Source: a virus. From it: a stretch of 64,000 bases of DNA. Both the position numbers and the translations under genes were made by a program. The notes under the pieces were generated by a model. The model worked only from the letters and a program-made list of their open reading frames with translations, was not told the origin of the DNA and ran no database searches. Within the stretch, counting starts at the first letter, position 1. The number at the start of each line of letters is the position of its first letter. The stretch is taken from positions 1 to 64,000 of IMG/VR virus record IMGVR_UViG_3300050821_017219; one strand, 5' to 3'. This document shows positions 13,656-64,000 of this stretch, one piece after another.

Positions 13656-14249
13656 ATGAAATCGACACTTCTTGTTCGCCGTGCGCGTGTTTCGATCTCC
13701 TACGAGCCGCAGTCGGGGGCGACCGGCGCAACAGGATCGCCGGGGGGTGCAACCGGAGCAACCGGCGCAGCGGGCTCACCTGGAGGAGCAACAGGCGCAA
13801 CGGGAGCCGCAGGCGGAGGGGCGATCGTCAACTTCGCCTCCTTCTTCGCGCTCATGCCCGGCGACAACGCGTCGACCATCGCCGTAGGCGCGGCGATTCA
13901 GTTTCCGCAAACCGGACCGACGGCCGGGCTCTCCCCGCCGACGCGCGCTTCAGCATCGACGTTTACTCTCCCAAACGTCGGCGTCTACGAAGTCACGTGG
14001 CAGGCGAGCATCACCGAAGCCGGACAGCTGCAGCTCGCGCTCGCTGGGGTCGGTCTGGCCAGCACAGTCGTTGGTCGAGCAACGGGCACCAACCAGATCT
14101 TCGGATCGACCATCATCAACAACCTCGTCGCTGGTCAAGTTCTGTCGGTCATCAATCCGGCCGGCAACTCAACGGCGTTGACGATGACGGTCATTGCCGG
14201 AGGAACGCATTCGGTTTCGGCGACGCTGAGCATCAAACAGCTGTCGTAA
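13656..14249 (+). CDS. Collagen-like fibre with TNF/BclA-like head
   Basis: A 197-residue protein. The N-terminal tag STLLVRRARVSIS is shared with three other fibre genes here. Residues 21-56 are Gly-X-Thr/Gly-X-Y collagen repeats. Residues 58-197 form a beta-rich head whose FTLPNVGVYEVTWQASI segment and following strands resemble the C-terminal trimeric (TNF/C1q-like) domain of BclA spore-filament proteins. Trimeric spikes or fibres of this type contact host surfaces. Domain assignment is from pattern resemblance only. Confidence 0.75.
   Translation: MKSTLLVRRARVSISYEPQSGATGATGSPGGATGATGAAGSPGGATGATGAAGGGAIVNFASFFALMPGDNASTIAVGAAIQFPQTGPTAGLSPPTRASASTFTLPNVGVYEVTWQASITEAGQLQLALAGVGLASTVVGRATGTNQIFGSTIINNLVAGQVLSVINPAGNSTALTMTVIAGGTHSVSATLSIKQLS
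13716..13823 (+). repeat. Collagen-like GXY coding repeat
   Basis: Codons for about twelve Gly-X-Y triplets dominated by Gly-Ala-Thr, encoded by mixed synonymous codons, so the repetition is in the protein more than in the DNA. Confidence 0.8.
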
Positions 14250-14274
14250 ATTCAAAGACGTATCTAAAACGCCG

Positions 14275-14481
14275 ATGAATTTGTCGAGACAAACGCAGCT
14301 TCTCGTCGATCAGGCGAACACCATCAAGGCCGCCTACGACGATCTACTGCAACAAATCAGACGAGATGGCCGCTTCGACTTCAGCGCGGCAGTAAAAGCC
14401 GCCGACGTGGAGATGCGCTGGAAGATAGCGCGACTCGCCGCACTAGAGGCTATCGCCAAAGACGCCGAGATAGAGGTTTGA
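14275..14481 (+). CDS. Small helical protein (68 aa)
   Basis: A charged, fully helical protein between two fibre genes; the next gene starts at the base after its stop. Possibly a fibre chaperone or connector by position only. Confidence 0.5.
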   Translation: MNLSRQTQLLVDQANTIKAAYDDLLQQIRRDGRFDFSAAVKAADVEMRWKIARLAALEAIAKDAEIEV

Positions 14482-17121
14482 TTGAGTGCCAACGGCCCCC
14501 CCGGTAATCCCCAGCTCGATGTGCTCCGTGCTCGCGTAGCCATCGGCGGCATCGGCGGGGGTGCGTCCGGCCCTACCGGTGCGACGGGTCCGGCCGGTTC
14601 ACCAGGGGGAGCGACGGGCGCAACTGGTGCCCCCGGAGCAACAGGCGCAGGCGCAACCGGAGCAGTCGGGGCTACAGGTGCGATCGGCGCTACTGGCGCA
14701 GTCGGGGCAACTGGCGCTACCGGCTCTGGCGCTACCGGGGCAACCGGAGCAACAGGTTCCGCCCCTCTCTTTTCGATCACAAATCCAGCGTTTGCGGGAG
14801 GCGCCAGCGCCGCTGCCACACCGACGCAGAACGTCGCCGCTATCAATGCGACAATCGCGGCAGCAAATGCCGCGGGGGGCACGGTCTATGTCCCGAACGA
14901 TCCGGCCGGGGCATACCGCATCAACGCGCCGATCTCGATCCCTCATGACACGGTGATCGTCGGGGAAGCCTCGTCGATCGGTACGCCCAAAAGCGTATTG
15001 CAAGCGGCCGTTGCTATGCCGGCCATGCTGCAAGTTGAAACGCAGCAAAATCAAACCCTGCCGACCCCTGCGCAGATCCGCGCGATCACGCTCGACCAAA
15101 ATCTTCTCGCGATCTGGGGCATCGATCGCCGAAGTGACCTCTCGAGCCGATATAGCAGTGTGCAGTGTCGTAACGCGCCGCTCGATGGCTTCCACTCGAG
15201 CTCACATTCGGTGGCCGTCGCGATTTCGGCTATCGTTCCGGGCGGTGGCGCTGGCGCAGGACAGCTCACGCTCTCGCAACCGGATGTCAGCTACGCGGGC
15301 GACATCTCAAGTTCGGGTACGCACTACGCCATCAAGTTTGTGGTCGCTGGAGGGTACGGCGTCGGGCAATTCGTACTGTCGCAAGACGGGGGCGTAACCT
15401 TCGCTACGGCGCGGCAGACAGTCCAGGCCGTCTCCAATCTCATTGTGACACAGGCTGCTCAGTATACCCACGCGATGGGGTTGCAGGCAACCTTTGCCAA
15501 TATCGTATACGGTCTCAACTGGACTTATACATGGACGGCCACGGGTGGGCTTGAGCCCAACACGAGCAATACGACAATCAACGCGCTCGTGCGCTTCGAC
15601 GATTGCTCTGTCGTCAATCTCGGTGTGGCGTATTGCTCGGACGCCGGTACGCGCGCGATCTACAGCAATCTTTTGGCTCAGGCCTTCACGACTGGTGGGA
15701 CCGTCACCTCGACGCCAGGCTCGCAGCTCTTGGTCGGCACCGGGACGGCGTTTCTCACAGGCTCGCAACCGAATTTGGCGCCTCGACCCGGCGATACTAT
15801 CTGGCTGAATAACAGCCCGGCGGACCCTCGGATCGCCAACTTTCAGATCCTCGCCGTCATGGACGACTTCACGGTGGTCGTATCCGTGGGCGATGCCCCC
15901 AACTTGCCCGCCCTCGCGGGTGTGCACTTCGCGCTCGTCGTCGGAGCCGGCTGCTACGTCACCGATGGCGGCGACAACATCGGAGAGGCTTGGCACGACG
16001 GCTACATGGAGACGGTCGCCAATGGTTGGCGGCTAAGCGGCGTCTCGCCCATGAGCCTCTATAGCCCATTTCTCGAAGCCGACTCCGCCGGTATTGGCGT
16101 GGGGATTGGCGGCCAGATGAGCGCGGGTGCTCAAACTATCGTACAAGCGCCCTACATCAAACTATCAACGCAAGGCCGCCAGTATTACGTCCAGCAGGCT
16201 TCCCTCTGCGAAATCATCGACCCCGAGGGGCCGTTCGGGCCCGATGGGCTAGGGGGCTCGGGCTTCGCGCGCGTCACGTTCAACGGCCAGCCGTACGCCT
16301 ATAACTTCGTCCAGAATGACTTTCAACCCAAAGCCAATTTGGTTTTGCAGGCAAGCGTCGTCTCGGTCACTGTGCCCAATCAAGTCCTCGTCGGCCCTCC
16401 CCTCGATGTGTTCCAGGGGGGCGCCACGGCGTACACGGTGCTTGTCCCGAATGCGGATTACATCGGGACGGCCAACACGCCGCTTTTGCCCGCGCCGAGC
16501 GTGCCCGGACAGCTTTGGCTCATCGAAAATCAGTTGAACAGCGCTCACGTCTTCGAGTTCTTCGATAACGGGACATTCGGGGCATCTCACCTGAACCTGG
16601 CGTGTCAGTCGCTTTTTATGTTTCCGGGCGAGCGGATGCTACTCGTCGCCTCGGAGGTCGCCGGCTCTGTTGCCTCGTGGCAGATCATGGGGGACGTCCA
16701 GCGGAGCTACCGCGGCCAGAGCGGCGAGGGAAGCAAGTGCGGGCCGGGCTCGGGCGTGGCGATCGGCGTCGGAACGATCAACGTGCAGCTCTGGGACGTC
16801 GTGTTTGTTCCAACGAGAGGTTTTGCCGCAAAGCTCAACGTCAGCGTCAAGGACGCGGCATCGGCCTCGTTTGCGTGTTGGCTCGGCTGCACGGTGGGCG
16901 TCGACGGCACGGGGGCCATCATCGGGCAATTCGTACCGACGACGCAGGCGCAAGGCGCCTTCGGCAGCAACGCGGGGCTGCCCCCCGTCGGTTGGGCAAT
17001 GCAATTCGCTATCGTAGTAATCGGGGGCAGTAACCAAGTGGCTGCGCAGGTGACAACGACAGGCGGCATCACGGCAAAAGCGCTTTCCCAGAGCGAGCAG
17101 ATCGCTGCATACCCAATTTAG
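14482..17121 (+). CDS. Collagen-like tailspike with beta-helix domain
   Basis: An 879-residue protein. The TTG at 14482 follows the preceding stop directly. The N-terminus contains LDVLRARV, a relative of the RRARV tag. Residues 30-93 are GXY repeats. Residues 105-150 contain the start of a pectate-lyase-3-like right-handed beta-helix (AINATIAAANAAGGTVYVPNDP), followed by some 500 residues of beta-rich sequence and a separate C-terminal beta domain. This architecture is typical of phage spikes that bind or cleave polysaccharides. Catalytic residues cannot be assigned by eye. Confidence 0.75.
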   Translation: MSANGPPGNPQLDVLRARVAIGGIGGGASGPTGATGPAGSPGGATGATGAPGATGAGATGAVGATGAIGATGAVGATGATGSGATGATGATGSAPLFSITNPAFAGGASAAATPTQNVAAINATIAAANAAGGTVYVPNDPAGAYRINAPISIPHDTVIVGEASSIGTPKSVLQAAVAMPAMLQVETQQNQTLPTPAQIRAITLDQNLLAIWGIDRRSDLSSRYSSVQCRNAPLDGFHSSSHSVAVAISAIVPGGGAGAGQLTLSQPDVSYAGDISSSGTHYAIKFVVAGGYGVGQFVLSQDGGVTFATARQTVQAVSNLIVTQAAQYTHAMGLQATFANIVYGLNWTYTWTATGGLEPNTSNTTINALVRFDDCSVVNLGVAYCSDAGTRAIYSNLLAQAFTTGGTVTSTPGSQLLVGTGTAFLTGSQPNLAPRPGDTIWLNNSPADPRIANFQILAVMDDFTVVVSVGDAPNLPALAGVHFALVVGAGCYVTDGGDNIGEAWHDGYMETVANGWRLSGVSPMSLYSPFLEADSAGIGVGIGGQMSAGAQTIVQAPYIKLSTQGRQYYVQQASLCEIIDPEGPFGPDGLGGSGFARVTFNGQPYAYNFVQNDFQPKANLVLQASVVSVTVPNQVLVGPPLDVFQGGATAYTVLVPNADYIGTANTPLLPAPSVPGQLWLIENQLNSAHVFEFFDNGTFGASHLNLACQSLFMFPGERMLLVASEVAGSVASWQIMGDVQRSYRGQSGEGSKCGPGSGVAIGVGTINVQLWDVVFVPTRGFAAKLNVSVKDAASASFACWLGCTVGVDGTGAIIGQFVPTTQAQGAFGSNAGLPPVGWAMQFAIVVIGGSNQVAAQVTTTGGITAKALSQSEQIAAYPI
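14569..14760 (+). repeat. Collagen-like GXY coding repeat
   Basis: About twenty Gly-X-Y triplets, mostly Gly-Ala-Thr and Gly-Ala-Val/Ile, forming the shaft of the spike protein. Confidence 0.8.
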
Positions 17122-17148
17122 CGTCTGAATTCCGAAAGCAAAATTCCA

Positions 17149-18042
17149 ATGGCAGTCGACCATCCCTTCGTTCGTCGTTCCCGCGTCGCCAACGTCGCTC
17201 TCACCGGCGGAAGTGGCGGCGGTGCCACCGGCGCTTCAGGTAGCAATGGAGCGACTGGCGCTACCGGCTCAAACGGAGCGACAGGTGCGACCGGCGCGGG
17301 GGTAACCGGCGCGACGGGCAGTGCTGGCGCTACAGGATCTCTCGGCGCAACCGGCGCGACCGGAAGTGGAGCAACAGGCGCTACCGGAAGCCAAGGCGCG
17401 ACGGGACCTGGCGCAGGGGCGACCGGGGCTACGGGAGCGACCGGACCGGCCGGCGTTGGCGCTACAGGTGCGACTGGAGCGGGCGTTACGGGAGCCACCG
17501 GAGCCGTAGGCGCAACTGGGTCGGCGGGGGTCGGAGCAACCGGTGCAACTGGCGCAGGAACGGTCGGTGCGACTGGCGCAACGGGCGCGGGCGGCGCAAC
17601 AGGCGCTGCTGGTGCAACGGGGGCGGGCGGGGCCACCGGAGCTACGGGGGCGACACCCGCCGCGACGCTCGTTCAGACCACAAGTGTTTCTAGTGGAAAT
17701 ACGGGGCTAACAACGACCGGCCAAACTCTCACTTCTGTAGGGATTACAATAGCGACTGGGCAGCGCGTCTTTATTTGGGCCTCTTGCTCATCGCAAATCA
17801 CTGCGGGCGTCACATCGACGGCTACCTACAAAATCACGCGAAATGGAACTCAACTTCAGGCGGCGGTGTTCCATAACCAGACCAATGCGGCTACGAGCAG
17901 CACTCCGGTATGTATGTTCGCTTTTGATACTGCGGGCGTAGCCGGTGTGCAGACCTACGCCTTTGTCGGAACGACGAGCGGTGTCAACGGTGACATCACC
18001 GCGATCGCACCGGAGATGATATTCTTCATCACTACTGTCTAA
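17149..18042 (+). CDS. Collagen-like fibre protein (297 aa)
   Basis: The N-terminal tag [12 protein letters not shown] is followed by a long collagen-like shaft (about residues 24-168) and a C-terminal beta domain of about 125 residues ([20 protein letters not shown] onward) that looks like a small trimeric head. Weak GAAAG ribosome-binding site. A surface-exposed fibre is the natural reading; the receptor is unknown. Confidence 0.75.
17218..17652 (+). repeat. Long collagen-like GXY coding repeat
   Basis: The longest GXY tract of the window, about 48 triplets with Gly-Ala-Thr dominant and a few Ser, Asn and Pro substitutions. The opposite strand reads as an open Ala-Pro-Val repeat, which is an artefact. 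Confidence 0.8.
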
Positions 18043-18077
18043 TCGGCTCTAGAAGGTTTCAAGAAAGCAAATACAAA

Positions 18078-19820
18078 ATGGGTCGTTCAACGCTACTTGT
18101 CCGTCGATCTCGCATCAGCGTCGATCCCTCGCCGTCGGGTGGAGGCGGAGGGACGGGGGCCACCGGATCTCCCGGCGCGACCGGGGCCAACGGCGCTACG
18201 GGTGCGACCGGCGCCGGTGTCACGGGAGCGACGGGCAGCGCGGGGGCGACCGGTTCTGCGGGAGCCACGGGGGCTACGGGAGCCGGAGTGACCGGTGCAA
18301 CCGGCTCGCAAGGTGCGACCGGACCGGGCGGTGGTGCGACCGGCGCTACAGGCGCGACCGGAAGTAATGGTGCGACGGGCGCTACCGGAGCCGGTGTTAC
18401 TGGCGCTACCGGCGCCGCTGGAGCTACTGGCGCGGCGGGCGCTGGAGCAACCGGAGCGACGGGGGCAGGTACAGCGGGAGCTACGGGAGCAACTGGGGCA
18501 GGCGGGGGCGGTGCCCTCACGGCGTTCGGAGCGGACCTCGTTGGGTCGGCTGCGACAACGCAGTGGATCGCATCGATCAGCGGGCAAGGTGGTACTGGCG
18601 GGACCGTTCCCATCGGAGGGTCCGCCAATACGGTGATGCAGTTCCGGGCCGGCGCCGTTCAATCTTCGGCGGGGCTTTCGCAGGCACAGCAGACGAGTGA
18701 CATCCCGACGGTCGACCTCGTCTTCGGGTCGCAGCGAGGATTCGCGACTGCAACAGGAACCAACCGCACCGCGGGCAGCATCGTCGCTGCGATTCCAGCG
18801 GTCACCAACGCTGGTACGGCTGCAGGGGCCTTCCGTGTGACGGAATCAGGCGCTGGAGTCATCGCCATCGCGCCTGGAGGCTTCGGGCAAGCGCCAACGT
18901 CTGGCGCTGCTGCTGCCGCAATTTGGTTGAACCTCACTCGCGGTACAGAGTCCGGTACGAACTACTCCATCGCAGCAAACTCTATCAATACGACCGTAAA
19001 TGGAGTCTCTACCGTTCGTCTCGACGTCGCTGGTTTCGATCAGCTTTCCATGACGTCGGTTGGTGCGCAGTTCTTCCGCACCAACGGAACGGTCGCATTC
19101 GGCGGTGGGACCGGCGGAATTATCTCGATCGACAGCTCAGCGATCGTCCCACCGACGGCACTTCCGACGACTGCGGTGCTGGTTTACGCCAATACCGGCT
19201 CCCCAGGCAGCCTAGGGCTGATGGCGACGGGGATCCAGTTCAACAAGACGCTCGGGACGGTTACCGCAACGATCGGATCGGACGGACCCACGACGGATGT
19301 CATACCAAACGGCATCCTAGTGCAAGCGGCATCGGCCTTTGCTGCTGCAGTCACCAACACCACTGGTGGGTCGGTGATTATCGCTGCTGGGGCCGCCTCT
19401 GCGCTCTCCAACGGAACGCAGATCTCACTGTCCGGCGGGGTCACCGGTGGTGGTGTACCCACCAATCTCGGGACGGTTCAGTTCCGAACGTCGGGCGTCG
19501 GCGGCAACTTGTCGGACCCATCGACGCTGTCGGTACCGTTCGCGTGGATCACGGCGCCGTCGTTCTCCATCGCGTCGGGTGGAACGATTACCCTCTCGGG
19601 CGCGCAGGCGGCATCGCCGGTGCTGACGATGACTGGGACGACGGCCGGAACGACGATCGCGTTTCCGAACGTTCCTGGCTTCTGGCTAGTCGACTTCAGC
19701 ACCGTAACAGGTCCGCTCACCTTCACGAGCGGATCTGGAACGACGGCCGCGTTGACGGCAGTGGCGGGAGCCATCGTGACCGTCGTCACCATGGGTGGAA
19801 ACAGAATCCGCATCAAGTAA
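18078..19820 (+). CDS. Collagen-like fibre protein (580 aa)
   Basis: Begins [19 protein letters not shown], the clearest copy of the shared N-terminal tag. Residues 23-150 are GXY repeats; the remaining 430 residues are Gly/Thr/Ser/Ala-rich beta strands suggestive of a long repetitive beta structure. Last gene of the rightward fibre operon; it converges with a minus-strand gene 21 bases away. Confidence 0.75.
18144..18515 (+). repeat. Collagen-like GXY coding repeat
   Basis: About forty Gly-X-Y triplets, mostly Gly-Ala-Thr, forming the shaft of the 580-residue fibre protein. Confidence 0.8.
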
Positions 19821-26304: not shown

Positions 26305-27858
26305 ATGGCCGGAACACTCATCGTTCGTCGAGCTCGCGTCGTCACCAACGTCGGCTCGGGTAGCGGCAACGGCGCAACCGGCGCAACTGGACCGGGCGGA
26401 GGCGCGACTGGACCGACGGGGGCGACAGGTGCAACCGGGGCCGTCGGCGCATCAGGTGCCACGGGTGCTTTCGGTGTCACCGGCGCTACGGGGCCGACCG
26501 CACGCACGCCGCTTGGCGCAGTCAGATTCATCGATCCATCCAACTCATCTGGCCTGGCGTCAGACAGCAACAACGGCGCAACCAACGTAACGCCAATTCT
26601 GACGACAGCGCATCTCAATAACCTTCTGTTCTTCAAATCGCTGACGGCCAATACGACGATTACGTATATGAGCGACGATCTTAGCGGCGTTGGGTTGGAT
26701 TATTCAACGATGGCGTTGGGCAATTTCAACTTGACGTTTCAGATGACGCCGGTCGTTACGCATACGGGTGGAACGCTCAACGCCGGCACGGTCGCGATCA
26801 ATCCGTTGGCGGCGTCTGGCGGTCAACGCCAAGTCGTTCATACTTCCGACGTTGTGACGTTCAATCCGTTTGTCTTTACAGGATTGGGCGGAGCGTCGGC
26901 GCATCCACAACGACTCGTCGCGACGAGTGGAGGCGACGTCAATACTGGCGCGTGGATCGTCTCAGCAACAACCCCAGCTTCGCCGTCGATGTCTCGGTCA
27001 ATCACGCCTGGTGGAACCAACGGCAATCTAACGATTGGCGACACCTACAAGATTCAGCGTGGGGGGATCATCAACGTCACGCAAGGCCAACCTCCCACAC
27101 AAGACGCCGGGCCGTCTGGAGGTGGCGGTGGTCTAGTGTTCTTCAACGACGCCGCCTTTGGCCTAACGAGCTGGGGCATCGGAGGTATACAATACGCCCG
27201 ATGTAGCTTTGAGAATTCACTTGTCGTTGCTGCGGGTCTTACCGATTGCTTCGTCGGCGCTGGTATTATCGAGATTCTACCGATTGGATCTATCTCGATG
27301 ACAGCCGGTGTTCTTGTGACGACTATCTTCGATTTACTTCATTCGTCCATTAGTTTTGCTGACGATACGTACATCACCGGATCAGCCTTTATTCTTTCGG
27401 GCAACGTCTATGGTAGCGTAACGGCTCTGCCAGGTAGTGGTAACGGGATTCAAATCCAAGATATGACGAACCCTACCGGCGCGCTCATCGTTTTGACCGC
27501 CATCCCGTTTGCGAATCAGACGGGGTCGCCGTCGAACCCGCTCATCTGGGGAAACGGTAACGTCGGACCGGGTATCACGATCGGACCGGGAGCGTGTATC
27601 ACGGTGGCTGACGAGGTTGGGGTTGTACCGAGCGTCACCGGAACCGGCGGAGACTTCGCATTCATCGCCGAAAATAGCGGACCGCTTGTGACGGTAGCGC
27701 GCGCTTGGAACAACGCGACGGGCGCCTACACGGAAGCGGGGGGCGTTGCGACCAGAACGACGACCTGGGCGCATTTCGCTGCTAGTATCTCCCCCGGTGG
27801 CGGTTTTCTCTTTCAAGCGCATAACGTAGCGACAGCAGCGTCAATCATTGCGGTCTGA
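26305..27858 (+). CDS. Collagen-like fibre with beta-helix region
   Basis: A 517-residue protein beginning MAGTLIVRRARVVTNVGSG, the shared fibre tag. Residues 22-68 are GXY repeats. From residue 70, VRFIDPSNSSGLASDSNNG is a typical entry to a right-handed beta-helix, followed by long beta-rich coils. Paired with the upstream transglycosylase-like gene; probably a receptor-binding or depolymerising spike. Confidence 0.75.
   Translation: MAGTLIVRRARVVTNVGSGSGNGATGATGPGGGATGPTGATGATGAVGASGATGAFGVTGATGPTARTPLGAVRFIDPSNSSGLASDSNNGATNVTPILTTAHLNNLLFFKSLTANTTITYMSDDLSGVGLDYSTMALGNFNLTFQMTPVVTHTGGTLNAGTVAINPLAASGGQRQVVHTSDVVTFNPFVFTGLGGASAHPQRLVATSGGDVNTGAWIVSATTPASPSMSRSITPGGTNGNLTIGDTYKIQRGGIINVTQGQPPTQDAGPSGGGGGLVFFNDAAFGLTSWGIGGIQYARCSFENSLVVAAGLTDCFVGAGIIEILPIGSISMTAGVLVTTIFDLLHSSISFADDTYITGSAFILSGNVYGSVTALPGSGNGIQIQDMTNPTGALIVLTAIPFANQTGSPSNPLIWGNGNVGPGITIGPGACITVADEVGVVPSVTGTGGDFAFIAENSGPLVTVARAWNNATGAYTEAGGVATRTTTWAHFAASISPGGGFLFQAHNVATAASIIAV
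26368..26508 (+). repeat. Collagen-like GXY coding repeat
   Basis: About fifteen Gly-X-Y triplets in the shaft of the 517-residue fibre protein. Confidence 0.75.
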
Positions 27859-59731: not shown

Positions 59732-62035
59732 ATGAGCGACTTCTCGCCTTCGCTGCAAAACGCGGCCGCCGCCGGTATCCCGACGACGCGGCAGCCGTAT
59801 CTCGACGGCAACGCTGGCGTTCGCCAGAGCCTCGAAGCGATGGCGCTGAAGATGCGCGAGGGCCGCGTTGATCCTGCGGTAGTCGGTTGGGCGGGTGGCG
59901 TTTTGAAGGATGCGGGGTTGGACGGTCGCGACGGCTTTCCGATCCGTCGTCAAGTCTCGGCGTTGCTCGAAGCGTTGCGCAGCCAAGTCATTTACGCGCC
60001 CGATGCGTACGGCGCTGAAGTCGTGTCGAGCGCGGCTGCAACGCTCTGTCTACGACCGAACCTCTGTCTTCACCGCGGCGACTGTTTCCCGAGCGGGACG
60101 TTGCTTCTTCGAGAAGACTACGAGCTCGTTCCGATCGAAAAGATCAAGGTAGGCGAGCGAATCTGGGGGCTCGACGGTTGGACGACCATCAAAGCGACCG
60201 CCTTCAAGGGCAACCTCGCCGTCGACGCGATCGAGATGAACAACGGCTCGACGATGTTTTTGACCGGCGAGCACAAGGTCTTCGTCGGGCGATGCAAACA
60301 CGATCGGACGATCTGCCCGTCGTGCTATCCGGCGCTACGACGAGAGCGCTTCGAGCGGGTCTCTGTTGCGGACCTTCAAGAAGGAGAGGTTCTTCTTCAA
60401 CCCGAGCGAATCGCCTTCGGCTCTGAAGAACCAGATCCCGGACGCATGTATATCGAAGGGCTGTACATCTCCGACGGTTGGTCGGAAGAAAACCGCTTCG
60501 CCATCTCCGGCAAGGACGGCTGTCGAAAAGAAGCGCAGAAGCACGAGGTCAAAGCGATCTGTGAGCGGCTCGGCATCCCGACCTACTGGCACAAGAGGTA
60601 CATCCGCATCAACGATGCCGCATGGGCCAATCGTCTAGCGCAGCGTGGAACGCGTGCACGCTTCAAGCACATCGAGACGCTCAACCTCAACGAAGCCGCC
60701 GCCGAAGCACTGCTCCGCGGGGTTATGGCCGACAGTACCGCGAACACGAACGGCCCCGGTCGAACATTCTCGACGACGTCTCGAGAGCTGATGGTTCAGA
60801 TGCGCATCTTGCAGCGCATGTTCGGCGTATCGACGGGGCTCAAAATGTTGACCCCCGCGCAACACGGCGGCGTTGGAACGCATAATCTGTGGCGTCTCGG
60901 CGTCCGAGCGACGAACGGCCGTACCGAAAAAACGCTGGCCGTGAAGTCGATCGACCGCGCCGTCCGAAAGGTTCCGTGTTGGGACATCCAGACGGAAGAC
61001 CACTACGTCTACCTCGCCGAGCATGATGTGACGGTCTCCAACTGTGACGATCTCGCCGTCGCGCTTGGTTCTGCAACCCTTTCGTTGGGCATTCCGACCG
61101 TCATCGTGAAGCAAAACTTCGGCGGCGAAAATCAAGAGCATGTTCTCATCGCCTTCCAGGACGAGAACCAAGAGTGGACCTACGCTGATCCCTCGACGAA
61201 GCTTCCCGTCGGTCGCGCACCGCAAGGTGCCGTCGATGAGATCTGGATCGACCCGATGGGGCCGGTTGGACCGATTCCAGAGGCTGGCGCTGAAATCGTC
61301 ACGCTTGGATCTGCGATAGCGTCTTCGTTTTCGTCTGAGATTCATTCGCCAGTCGAAAGACGGATGCATTTCGCCGGCAACCATTGGTGGCATCACGATG
61401 CGTCGGGTGTCTCTGTCTACGTCGACGACGCATGGCTTTCGACAGGTCTCTCTGGAATCCCTTCCGAAGTCGGCGTCGGCACCATCTTCGGTGCGCCAAC
61501 GGTCAACGAGATGATCGATTTCGCTTCGGTGGTCGGCGCCGAGATGAAAGACATCGGCGCGGTACCGACGACGTGCACCGGTTGGCCGAAAGACCCCGTC
61601 GGCTACCAAGCGTGGCTGATGGACATGCAAGACACGATGGCCGAGTTTCAGACGGCGAGCGACGCAGCGTTGGCGAAATTCAACTCGACGTCGAAGTATC
61701 TGCGCGACTTCACGTCGGCACCGGAGGAAATGAACGCGCTCGCCGATGTGGCTCGACAAATCACCGACTTGGATCGCCGACTGCGCGCAGCAACGGGTGG
61801 CGCCGGTTGCTCGGCCCCGACCTACGCCGACGTGCAGCAACCCCAGGCTATCGATTGGGACCTGCAGGGCTATCAAGGCGCCGACTTCGCCGCGAAGGTC
61901 GTCGAAAACGCCGGCAAAAAAATCGCAGGCGCGGCGCAACCAGCGGGCATCGCGTTTGGTGGTCTCATCGTCGGCGCTGCGCTCGCCGTCGCCGGCTTGA
62001 TCGTGTTGGACCACATGCTGCCGTCGCGTCGTTAG
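59732..62035 (+). CDS. Transglutaminase-like membrane protein split by an intein
   Basis: A 767-residue precursor; the mature extein would be 447 residues. Residues 1-117 are helical and end LCLHRGD. An intein fills residues 118-437. The downstream extein starts at Cys438 (CDDLAVALGSATLSLGIPTV), then ENQEHVLIAF and WTYADPSTKLPVG give the Cys-His-Asp triad of the transglutaminase/peptidase fold. A C-terminal membrane segment (GIAFGGLIVGAALAVAGLIV) and a basic end (LPSRR) follow. Splicing would rebuild the active-site GDC. It may act as a virion-bound peptidase in entry or maturation. Only four bases separate it from the preceding gene. Confidence 0.85.
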   Translation: MSDFSPSLQNAAAAGIPTTRQPYLDGNAGVRQSLEAMALKMREGRVDPAVVGWAGGVLKDAGLDGRDGFPIRRQVSALLEALRSQVIYAPDAYGAEVVSSAAATLCLRPNLCLHRGDCFPSGTLLLREDYELVPIEKIKVGERIWGLDGWTTIKATAFKGNLAVDAIEMNNGSTMFLTGEHKVFVGRCKHDRTICPSCYPALRRERFERVSVADLQEGEVLLQPERIAFGSEEPDPGRMYIEGLYISDGWSEENRFAISGKDGCRKEAQKHEVKAICERLGIPTYWHKRYIRINDAAWANRLAQRGTRARFKHIETLNLNEAAAEALLRGVMADSTANTNGPGRTFSTTSRELMVQMRILQRMFGVSTGLKMLTPAQHGGVGTHNLWRLGVRATNGRTEKTLAVKSIDRAVRKVPCWDIQTEDHYVYLAEHDVTVSNCDDLAVALGSATLSLGIPTVIVKQNFGGENQEHVLIAFQDENQEWTYADPSTKLPVGRAPQGAVDEIWIDPMGPVGPIPEAGAEIVTLGSAIASSFSSEIHSPVERRMHFAGNHWWHHDASGVSVYVDDAWLSTGLSGIPSEVGVGTIFGAPTVNEMIDFASVVGAEMKDIGAVPTTCTGWPKDPVGYQAWLMDMQDTMAEFQTASDAALAKFNSTSKYLRDFTSAPEEMNALADVARQITDLDRRLRAATGGAGCSAPTYADVQQPQAIDWDLQGYQGADFAAKVVENAGKKIAGAAQPAGIAFGGLIVGAALAVAGLIVLDHMLPSRR
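60083..61042 (+). mobile_element. Intein with LAGLIDADG endonuclease domain
   Basis: 320 residues. It begins CFPSGTLLL (N-terminal Cys1, block A), has NGSTMFLTGEHKVFV (block B with the TxxH-like site) and ends CWDIQTEDHYVYLAEHDVTVSN before extein Cys438 (blocks F and G). The last two residues are Ser-Asn, so the usual penultimate His is replaced. Two LAGLIDADG-like helices are visible: YIEGLYISDGW and AEALLRGVMADS. CKHDRTICPSC is an added Cys cluster. Probably a homing intein that targets the codons of the catalytic Cys. Confidence 0.85.
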
Positions 62036-62042
62036 GCGTCGA

Positions 62043-62507
62043 ATGATCATCGTCAAAGGGAAGGCAGTCAGCTTCGACATGGCGAACGGCGACGAAATCG
62101 ATGCGCCAGCGCGCTCGGCGATGTTGCACGATCCGCGCGGCAAATTCTGGCGTCGAAATTCTATTCTTGTTGCGCCATTCAAACGCGGCGGCGGTGGTGA
62201 AGTCGACGGCGACAGCGACTCGAAAGACTATCTCGGCCGAACGCATCTGACGCGCGTCGGTGATGTACCGCTTCCCCCGAAAGAGTTGTCGGCCTGGACG
62301 TACGAAGGCGAAGTGAGCGAGATTTGGTACACGCGTCACGGCGCAAAGTACGGCGGCAAGCGGTTCCGCCACGCGTTCAACAAGTCGTTGCTCGGCCGGC
62401 TCGTGAAGGGAACCGGCAAGGCGCGGCTGTACAGCCGTGGTAGTCTCTACCGATTGGAGCTACCGCGCGGCGCCATTGTCGATGGGAGAGGATTTTTATG
62501 GCCGTGA
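62043..62507 (+). CDS. Hypothetical basic protein (154 aa)
   Basis: Alpha/beta, rich in Lys, Arg and Gly, with GRTHLTRVGDVPLPPKEL and a basic C-terminal half. Overlapped by ten bases by the HNH gene, suggesting insertion of the latter. No family. Confidence 0.55.
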   Translation: MIIVKGKAVSFDMANGDEIDAPARSAMLHDPRGKFWRRNSILVAPFKRGGGGEVDGDSDSKDYLGRTHLTRVGDVPLPPKELSAWTYEGEVSEIWYTRHGAKYGGKRFRHAFNKSLLGRLVKGTGKARLYSRGSLYRLELPRGAIVDGRGFLWP

Positions 62508-63019
62508 TCTGGAAGTCTGTCGTCGGTTACGAGGGGTTGTACGACGTCTCTGACGAAGGACAGATCCGGCGTGTGGCGCCGGGGCGACGTACACACCCCG
62601 GGCGTATCGTTGTCGGTGGCGTCTCGAAGGGGCGTTACCGCATCGTCAAACTCTATCGAGGAACGACGAAGAGCGACTTCCGCGGGTTCTCCGTTCACGG
62701 TCTCGTCGCGGCAGCCTTTCTTGGCCCGCGTCCGGAAAGGGGCGAGGTGAACCACAAGAACGGCATCAAGACGGACAACAGGCTCGAGAATTTAGAGTAC
62801 ACAACCCGCCTCGGAAACGCGCGCCACGCAGCAGTGAACGGGCTGCTCCGAAACGGCGAACGAGTCGTCGGCTCCAAGCTTACGGCCGACAATGTTCGCT
62901 CCATCCGCGCTCTGTCCGCTTTTGGCGTTCCGAAGCGACGGATCGCGAAGATGTTCGGCATCGCGCATTCGACCACGCAAAGCATCATCGACCGTCGTTG
63001 GTGGAAGCACGTCGCATGA
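62498..63019 (+). CDS. HNH homing endonuclease (NUMOD4-HNH)
   Basis: A 173-residue protein. WKSVVGYEGLYDVSDEGQIR at the N-terminus is a NUMOD4 DNA-binding motif. VNHKNGIKTDNRLENLEYTT is the HNH_3 nuclease core. A C-terminal helix-turn-helix (SAFGVPKRRIAKMFGIAHST) gives sequence specificity. Such free-standing homing endonucleases spread between related phages. It sits near the intein and overlaps both neighbours. Confidence 0.85.
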   Translation: MAVIWKSVVGYEGLYDVSDEGQIRRVAPGRRTHPGRIVVGGVSKGRYRIVKLYRGTTKSDFRGFSVHGLVAAAFLGPRPERGEVNHKNGIKTDNRLENLEYTTRLGNARHAAVNGLLRNGERVVGSKLTADNVRSIRALSAFGVPKRRIAKMFGIAHSTTQSIIDRRWWKHVA

Positions 63020-64000
63020 TCGATTATTCGCGCATGATTGACGCCAGCCGCAACGCGCCCGAACACGCGGCATCTGCGCCCGTCTTCTACGAAACAGCGA
63101 AGACGAAGACGCGCGCGCGTAGCCGTCGTTTGACAAAGCGCAAGAAACAAGCTTCACTTACAAAAGCGCGCGACCGGAAATCCACGAACCGTCGTCGTCG
63201 AAGCACCCCAGGGAAGGCTGCATCGATGGCAAAGCGAAGAATGTCGAGAAAGCAGCGCGCAGCGGCGCTGAAGAACCTCAAGAAGGCTCGCTCCGCCCGT
63301 CGGAGCAAAGCTTCTCGGCGCGGGATGCGCGTTCGGCTTCATCGGAAGTCGCCCCGTCGGCGCCGCTACATGACCGGCGGTGGTGTGAAGACGAAGCGTC
63401 GTCGTCGCCGCAAGGCCAAGCCGGAAGCAGAAGCAACACCGAAGCGTCGTCGGCGTAAGTCGGGCGGCAAGCGGAAGTCGGCCAAGCGAGTCGCGGCTGG
63501 CAAGAAGGCCGCTCGTACGCGCAAGCGCCGTCACTCCCGCAAGGGTGGCGCACCGAAACGCCGTCGTCGTCGGTCGCGCAAAGCCTCGGCGGCTCCCCGG
63601 CGGCGGCGTCGGCGTTCACGTCGGTCGTCTCCCCGTCGTCGTCGGCGCAGCCGCAAGACCGGTCGGGCGATGTCGATGCGACTCCCCCGTCGGGCGCGCA
63701 AGGTCTACGTCGTCGCCGCCGAGAAGCGCCGTCGTCGTGGACGCGGCCGTCGTCGTCACGGCGCGATGGAAAATCCGCTCTCTGGCGTCGAGCTGTTCGT
63801 CGGAAGCCTCTTCGGGTTGACCGGCTTCGCCATCGGCGATCTCACCGACCGCCTCATCGCGACCCACGCGTTGACGTTGAAGAGCGCCGCGACCACCACC
63901 ACGCCGGCCCTCTACGCCGACAACCCCCCGACGACCGGCAGCTACGCTGGCCTCTTCAATCCGACGGCGATCACTTCGCCGATGAACCTCCCCCGATGGG
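63016..64000 (+). CDS. Protamine-like Arg/Lys-rich protein with TM, partial
   Basis: Starts in an ATGA overlap with the HNH gene and runs off the right edge (328 residues visible). Residues 33-245 are dominated by Arg and Lys with Ser/Ala/Gly, in runs such as RRRRRRSRRSSPRRRRR, like histone H1 tails or protamines. Then GAMENPLSGVELFVGSLFG leads into a hydrophobic segment (about 252-276) and a Thr/Ser-rich continuation. It would bind and condense DNA while tied to a membrane. Low complexity makes homology claims unsafe. Confidence 0.7.
   Translation, partial: MIDYSRMIDASRNAPEHAASAPVFYETAKTKTRARSRRLTKRKKQASLTKARDRKSTNRRRRSTPGKAASMAKRRMSRKQRAAALKNLKKARSARRSKASRRGMRVRLHRKSPRRRRYMTGGGVKTKRRRRRKAKPEAEATPKRRRRKSGGKRKSAKRVAAGKKAARTRKRRHSRKGGAPKRRRRRSRKASAAPRRRRRRSRRSSPRRRRRSRKTGRAMSMRLPRRARKVYVVAAEKRRRRGRGRRRHGAMENPLSGVELFVGSLFGLTGFAIGDLTDRLIATHALTLKSAATTTTPALYADNPPTTGSYAGLFNPTAITSPMNLPRW

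Follow-up and report, generated by a model that had tools for sequence, protein, structure and literature searches.

A putative homing intein immediately before the predicted catalytic cysteine of a transglutaminase-like viral enzyme

The locus

The window analysed here is a 64,000-nucleotide stretch of viral DNA, bases 1-64000 of the 78,382-base virus record IMGVR_UViG_3300050821_017219. Near its end, an open reading frame on the plus strand (59732-62035) encodes 767 amino acids. Within it lies an insert of 320 amino acids (residues 118-437, nucleotides 60083-61042, CFPSGT...VTVSN), flanked by Asp117 and Cys438. With the junctions marked by slashes, the protein reads ...HRGD/CFPSGT...VTVSN/CDDLAV, and the flanking N- and C-exteins together total 447 amino acids. 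These values were recounted, and the open reading frame coordinates, the residue 117/438 numbering and the spliced length of 447 given in a preliminary description of this DNA were all correct. The features of the locus are as follows.

59732..60082, plus strand: N-extein, residues 1-117, the N-terminal part of the transglutaminase-like enzyme, ending ...NLCLHRGD
60083..61042, plus strand: intein, 320 amino acids, CFPSGT...VTVSN
60083..60109, plus strand: splicing block A including Cys1 (CFPSGTLLL)
60257..60283, plus strand: splicing block B, T-x-x-H (FLTGEHKVF)
60413..60931, plus strand: LAGLIDADG homing endonuclease domain, boundaries approximate; Pfam LAGLIDADG_3 at intein residues 120-189; low dN/dS
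60449..60481, plus strand: LAGLIDADG helix 1 (YIEGLYISDGW)
60701..60736, plus strand: LAGLIDADG helix 2 (AEALLRGVMADS)
60977..61015, plus strand: splicing block F (CWDIQTEDHYVYL), Asp and His retained
61028..61042, plus strand: splicing block G (VTVSN), with a Ser-Asn end (Ser-Asn in 6/6 inteins) and no penultimate His
61043..62035, plus strand: C-extein, residues 438-767, plus stop
61043..61045, plus strand: Cys438, splicing +1 nucleophile and predicted catalytic Cys; invariant in unique relatives; begins model helix 438-451
61139..61141, plus strand: His470, predicted catalytic His (conservation and model)
61187..61189, plus strand: Asp486, predicted catalytic Asp (conservation and model)
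61946..62008, plus strand: predicted C-terminal membrane helix, approximately residues 739-759 (hydropathy; window's clade only)

Composition at third codon positions is much the same throughout the gene, with a GC3 of 0.73 in the intein and 0.72 and 0.70 in the exteins. A transposon was also considered and rejected, as the ends of the insert have no flanking direct or inverted repeats.

The insert resembles a class 1-type homing intein

The residues expected for class 1-type splicing are present in the window: Cys118 at position 1, Asn437 at the end of the insert, and Cys438 at +1. The position-1 nucleophile, the terminal Asn and the +1 Cys are found in the other full-length copies of the intein as well, and all full-length copies retain the T and H of block B (TGEH) and the D and H of block F (CWDIQTEDH). 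Two LAGLIDADG helices, each with its acidic residue, can be recognized (EGLYISDG and LLRGVMADS). Across the six inteins of this family, both endonuclease Asp residues are retained and the reading frame is open.

The window's intein scores 24.3 bits against Pfam LAGLIDADG_3, above the cut-off of 22.5, whereas the single-sequence matches to Hint and Intein_splicing are weak and fall below their cut-offs. A profile built from the intein family matches Prp8 inteins of known structure (E 0.0009). When an AlphaFold model of the precursor was searched with Foldseek, the top rows were mostly inteins and related Hint domains (best probability 1.00, E 1.5e-3); the endonuclease part of this model is of low confidence. 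No match was obtained for the whole open reading frame 59732-62035 among PHROGs or NCBIfam profiles, or for the spliced protein and the intein among 50,697 phage records.

The penultimate residue is Ser rather than His in all six inteins, which confirms an oddity noted in the preliminary description. Mycobacteriophage inteins often have Gly, Lys or Ser in place of this His (PMC5050341). A penultimate His is a common but not obligatory feature of inteins, and its absence is ordinary among those of phages.

The interrupted enzyme has a transglutaminase-like fold

In a 27-row alignment of the enzyme, Cys438, His470 and Asp486 are invariant, and the three residues are present at 29 of 29 unique loci. 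In the precursor model, Cys438 stands at the start of a helix, a strand carries His470, and Asp486 comes after the following strand, a placement of Cys, His and Asp that is typical of transglutaminases and papain-like enzymes. The two exteins fold together in this model as a transglutaminase fold, with pLDDT mostly 75-97 over the extein domain. The closest structural match was the putative protease 3kd4 (Z 13.5, 140 residues, 3.0 A), and others included factor XIII and transglutaminase 3 (Z about 11), the putative Cys protease 3isr (Z 11.0), PNGase (Z 10.8), the pseudomurein endoisopeptidases PeiP (Z 10.2) and PeiW (Z 9.6), and LapG (Z 9.7). These matches span approximately residues 21-513 of the precursor. 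The viral enzyme shares the fold and the Cys-His-Asp order of the transglutaminase-like superfamily (PF01841; 3kd4, 3isr, PeiP, PeiW), but its identity to the solved structures is only about 10-15%.

Against Pfam Transglut_core, L042, a relative lacking the intein, scores 26.4 bits (cut-off 23), and matches occur in 12 of the 13 members of clade 2, the larger clade of the group described below; the window's own spliced protein scores 16.8 bits, below the cut-off. Modelling of both exteins, one of the checks named in the preliminary description, recovered the transglutaminase-superfamily fold, and its central proposal, an insertion exactly before the predicted catalytic Cys of such an enzyme with partner His and Asp residues, is supported. 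As for the reaction, the model is compatible with the range seen in the superfamily, and the enzyme could be a peptidase, an isopeptidase or a transferase. The further suggestion that it is membrane-anchored applies to only part of the group: hydropathy predicts a C-terminal hydrophobic helix in most of the window's clade, whereas clade-2 enzymes are about 215 amino acids long and have no such helix. Some records of the larger clade contain a second, weaker transglutaminase-like match (G022:81889-82242, G032:15258-15584, G020:97403-97678).

Most related viruses carry the enzyme without the intein

A single-sequence search of viral contigs gave nothing, and relatives were reached instead through the capsid-like gene that lies downstream of the enzyme gene. 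With this putative capsid gene (record 64707-66074) as query, we found three close relatives (L003, L004 and L005), which encode the enzyme without the insert and are 58-66% identical to the window over the enzyme domain. In the MAFFT alignment, Asp117 and Cys438 directly border the 320-residue gap. The preliminary description had held that relatives failing to align across residue 117/438 would count against an intein; all three insert-free relatives align straight across. Together with the splicing motifs and the two LAGLIDADG helices, they agree with the homing-type intein that it proposed.

Using an alignment of the capsid protein, we recovered 35 further IMG/VR contigs, which with the window's record make up the group (contigs up to 125 kb). 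The enzyme is encoded in 32 of these 35, that is, in every record reaching the locus; the remaining three contigs end just upstream of the capsid gene, at the expected enzyme position. The intein is present in five of the 35 and, counting the window, occupies six of 29 unique loci; the other 23 unique members have the same Cys, His and Asp and no intein. The insertion site is identical in all six inteins (SN/CD at the downstream junction and, where the opposite side is readable, GD/C); one copy (L034/G005) is truncated by the contig end. Two further scans of the viral collection revealed no copies outside these records. Genome contigs of 84,980 species contained no match to the enzyme or the intein, and so yielded neither a provirus nor a host, and none of 50,697 phages had a record matching the capsid-like protein. 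The group may represent an undescribed lineage, possibly of tailless viruses.

The intein is more alike between clades than the proteins around it

A tree of the capsid protein has two deep clades. The window falls in the smaller one (7 rows), where it is the sole intein carrier and its nearest relatives are intein-free, and the other five carriers are scattered through clade 2; this distribution forces at least three changes on the tree. Between the window and clade 2, identity is 60-64% for the intein, compared to 30-38% for the enzyme domain and 30-34% for the putative capsid protein. Inside clade 2, the intein (75-83% identity) and the capsid protein (73-79%) have diverged to a similar extent, so the excess similarity is not accounted for by slow intein evolution. 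The clade-2 copies are all about equally distant from the window's intein. Because the intein is more similar than the host proteins, and because the window's nearest relatives lack it, these sequence comparisons mean that the intein moved horizontally between the clades, directly or via unsampled viruses, and most simply by homing.

In the endonuclease domain, dN/dS is approximately 0.04-0.25, with dS near saturation. These low ratios suggest that the domain is under selection and probably active. The DNA around the insertion site is only moderately conserved, with about 16-18 of 24 bases shared between the window and the better-matching relatives.

A homing endonuclease-like gene of another type occurs nearby. 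One gene downstream of the enzyme gene, the window has a free-standing HNH homing endonuclease-like gene (62498-63019; PHROG 59, E 1.4e-36), which was not seen at the corresponding place in L003, L004 or L005. In L013, an HNH-like open reading frame (1212-1862) lies shortly upstream of the enzyme gene.

Proposed mechanism and alternative explanations

The insert is very probably a class 1-type homing intein residing in a host enzyme; splicing, DNA cleavage, homing and inactivity of the precursor are inferred. After translation, the intein would excise itself and join residues 117 and 438, yielding an intact Cys enzyme of 447 amino acids with a transglutaminase fold. Cys438 would be used twice, initially as the +1 nucleophile taking over the N-extein and then, once freed, as the catalytic Cys. 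It is plausible that the precursor is inactive before splicing, because the intein replaces the residues preceding the catalytic Cys. The target of the LAGLIDADG domain would be alleles without the intein, cut at the codons around this invariant Cys. A homing endonuclease requires a target that does not drift; codons for a catalytic motif could supply one. The element could in this way spread among coinfecting relatives, and its imprecise deletion would be expected to destroy the enzyme.

The preliminary description went further, proposing that splicing gates the enzyme. Such conditional protein splicing, in which the intein is retained to act as a switch and the enzyme stays inactive until a signal (redox, assembly or entry), would fit an insertion site that parts the catalytic Cys from the residues before it, as well as the retention of the unusual Ser-Asn end in 6/6 inteins, and the penultimate residue is known to alter the splicing rate of the mycobacteriophage RDF intein (PMC5050341). 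In that one case tested, however, the native residue, Gly, gave faster and not slower splicing than His (PMC5050341), and Ser is among the penultimate residues already reported for phage inteins. Insertion at an active site is likewise the norm (PMC3359363, PMC5050341): the mean distance to an active-site residue is 8.3 A for native intein sites, whereas other Cys/Ser/Thr sites average 21.1 A (PMC3359363). Moreover, no regulatory need for the intein is visible, because most unique members of the group function with the same enzyme and no intein. We therefore find the gating claim unsupported and a switch of this kind unlikely; its most elaborate version, in which the intein has been co-opted to control a zymogen, with one thiol in both roles and splicing timed to assembly or entry, strikes us as quite improbable.

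Two other readings fare no better. The single insertion site and single intein family would suit an ancestral intein inherited vertically and lost many times, with no horizontal gain by the window's lineage, but this is hard to reconcile with an intein similarity between the window and clade 2 that is about twice that of the host proteins, despite like rates for intein and capsid protein inside clade 2, or with the intein-free state of the window's nearest relatives; we regard it as very unlikely. That the intein has decayed and no longer splices, leaving the enzyme broken or bipartite, is extremely unlikely. The missing penultimate His could be taken as a sign of decay, yet Cys1, TxxH, the block F Asp and His, the Asn and the +1 Cys are retained in all full-length copies, all six reading frames are open, dN/dS is low, and the host gene occurs throughout the group. 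A homing intein that still splices remains the reading we prefer.

Relation to known inteins

An intein situated exactly at a catalytic Cys may have a precedent in UDP-glucose dehydrogenase. Mycobacteriophage LAGLIDADG inteins occupy the active centres of TerL, RDF, TOPRIM and other proteins, and they resemble the present one in their class 1 residues, homing endonuclease, active-centre insertion, horizontal transfer and replacement of the penultimate His (PMC5050341). The intein described here differs from them in residing in a transglutaminase-like host of undescribed viruses and in its insertion at the predicted catalytic nucleophile itself. Similarly, in the ribonucleotide reductase R2 of Aquifex aeolicus, a LAGLIDADG intein splits catalytic-site residues, lying between Glu228 and His231 with Cys230 at +1 (PMC8772380); there the +1 Cys sits between metal ligands, whereas here it is the predicted catalytic nucleophile. 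A full-text literature search, limited in extent, found no earlier report of an intein in a transglutaminase-like enzyme.

The element is ordinary in kind, a known type of selfish element, and very clean in detail. New here are the host enzyme, the proposed employment of a single thiol in two roles, the movement of the intein across a deep split, and the viruses as a group. The range of intein hosts is widened to a transglutaminase-like enzyme, and gene flow is revealed across the deep divide between the two clades of these undescribed viruses. Because the alleles of this core enzyme occur both with and without the intein, they also provide a natural series for studying splicing, activity and homing.

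Neighbouring genes

In all 31 loci tested, the enzyme and putative capsid genes share a strand, the former 1.7-4.1 kb upstream of the latter. This conserved linkage suggests a late or structural role for the putative transglutaminase-like enzyme, and it makes the virion location given in the preliminary description a possibility. A model of the capsid-like protein (pLDDT 64) matched known structures weakly, and for the most part these were jelly-roll capsid proteins (best Z 4.3); for this reason we refer to the capsid as putative. This gene (G000 64707-66074; L002:4708-6075) is conserved group-wide, as are the two that follow it (249 and 283 amino acids). Profile searches of seven records of the group for an FtsK-type ATPase and Terminase_6N found neither.

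An open reading frame on the minus strand (L002:15084-16472; record 75083-76471) resembles, by eye, a tyrosine-recombinase integrase, which suggests a temperate lifestyle; genome contigs yielded no provirus. A gene for a protein very rich in Arg and Lys, whose C-terminal half is more ordinary (window 62998-63999, continuing to L002:4549), lies upstream of the capsid-like gene, an order conserved in L003, L004, L005, L013 and L014. Its product may be a DNA-condensing virion protein. Elsewhere in the window (13656-19820 and 26305-27858), several proteins have collagen-like GATGATG repeats that follow a similar N-terminal stretch (RRARV/RRSR).
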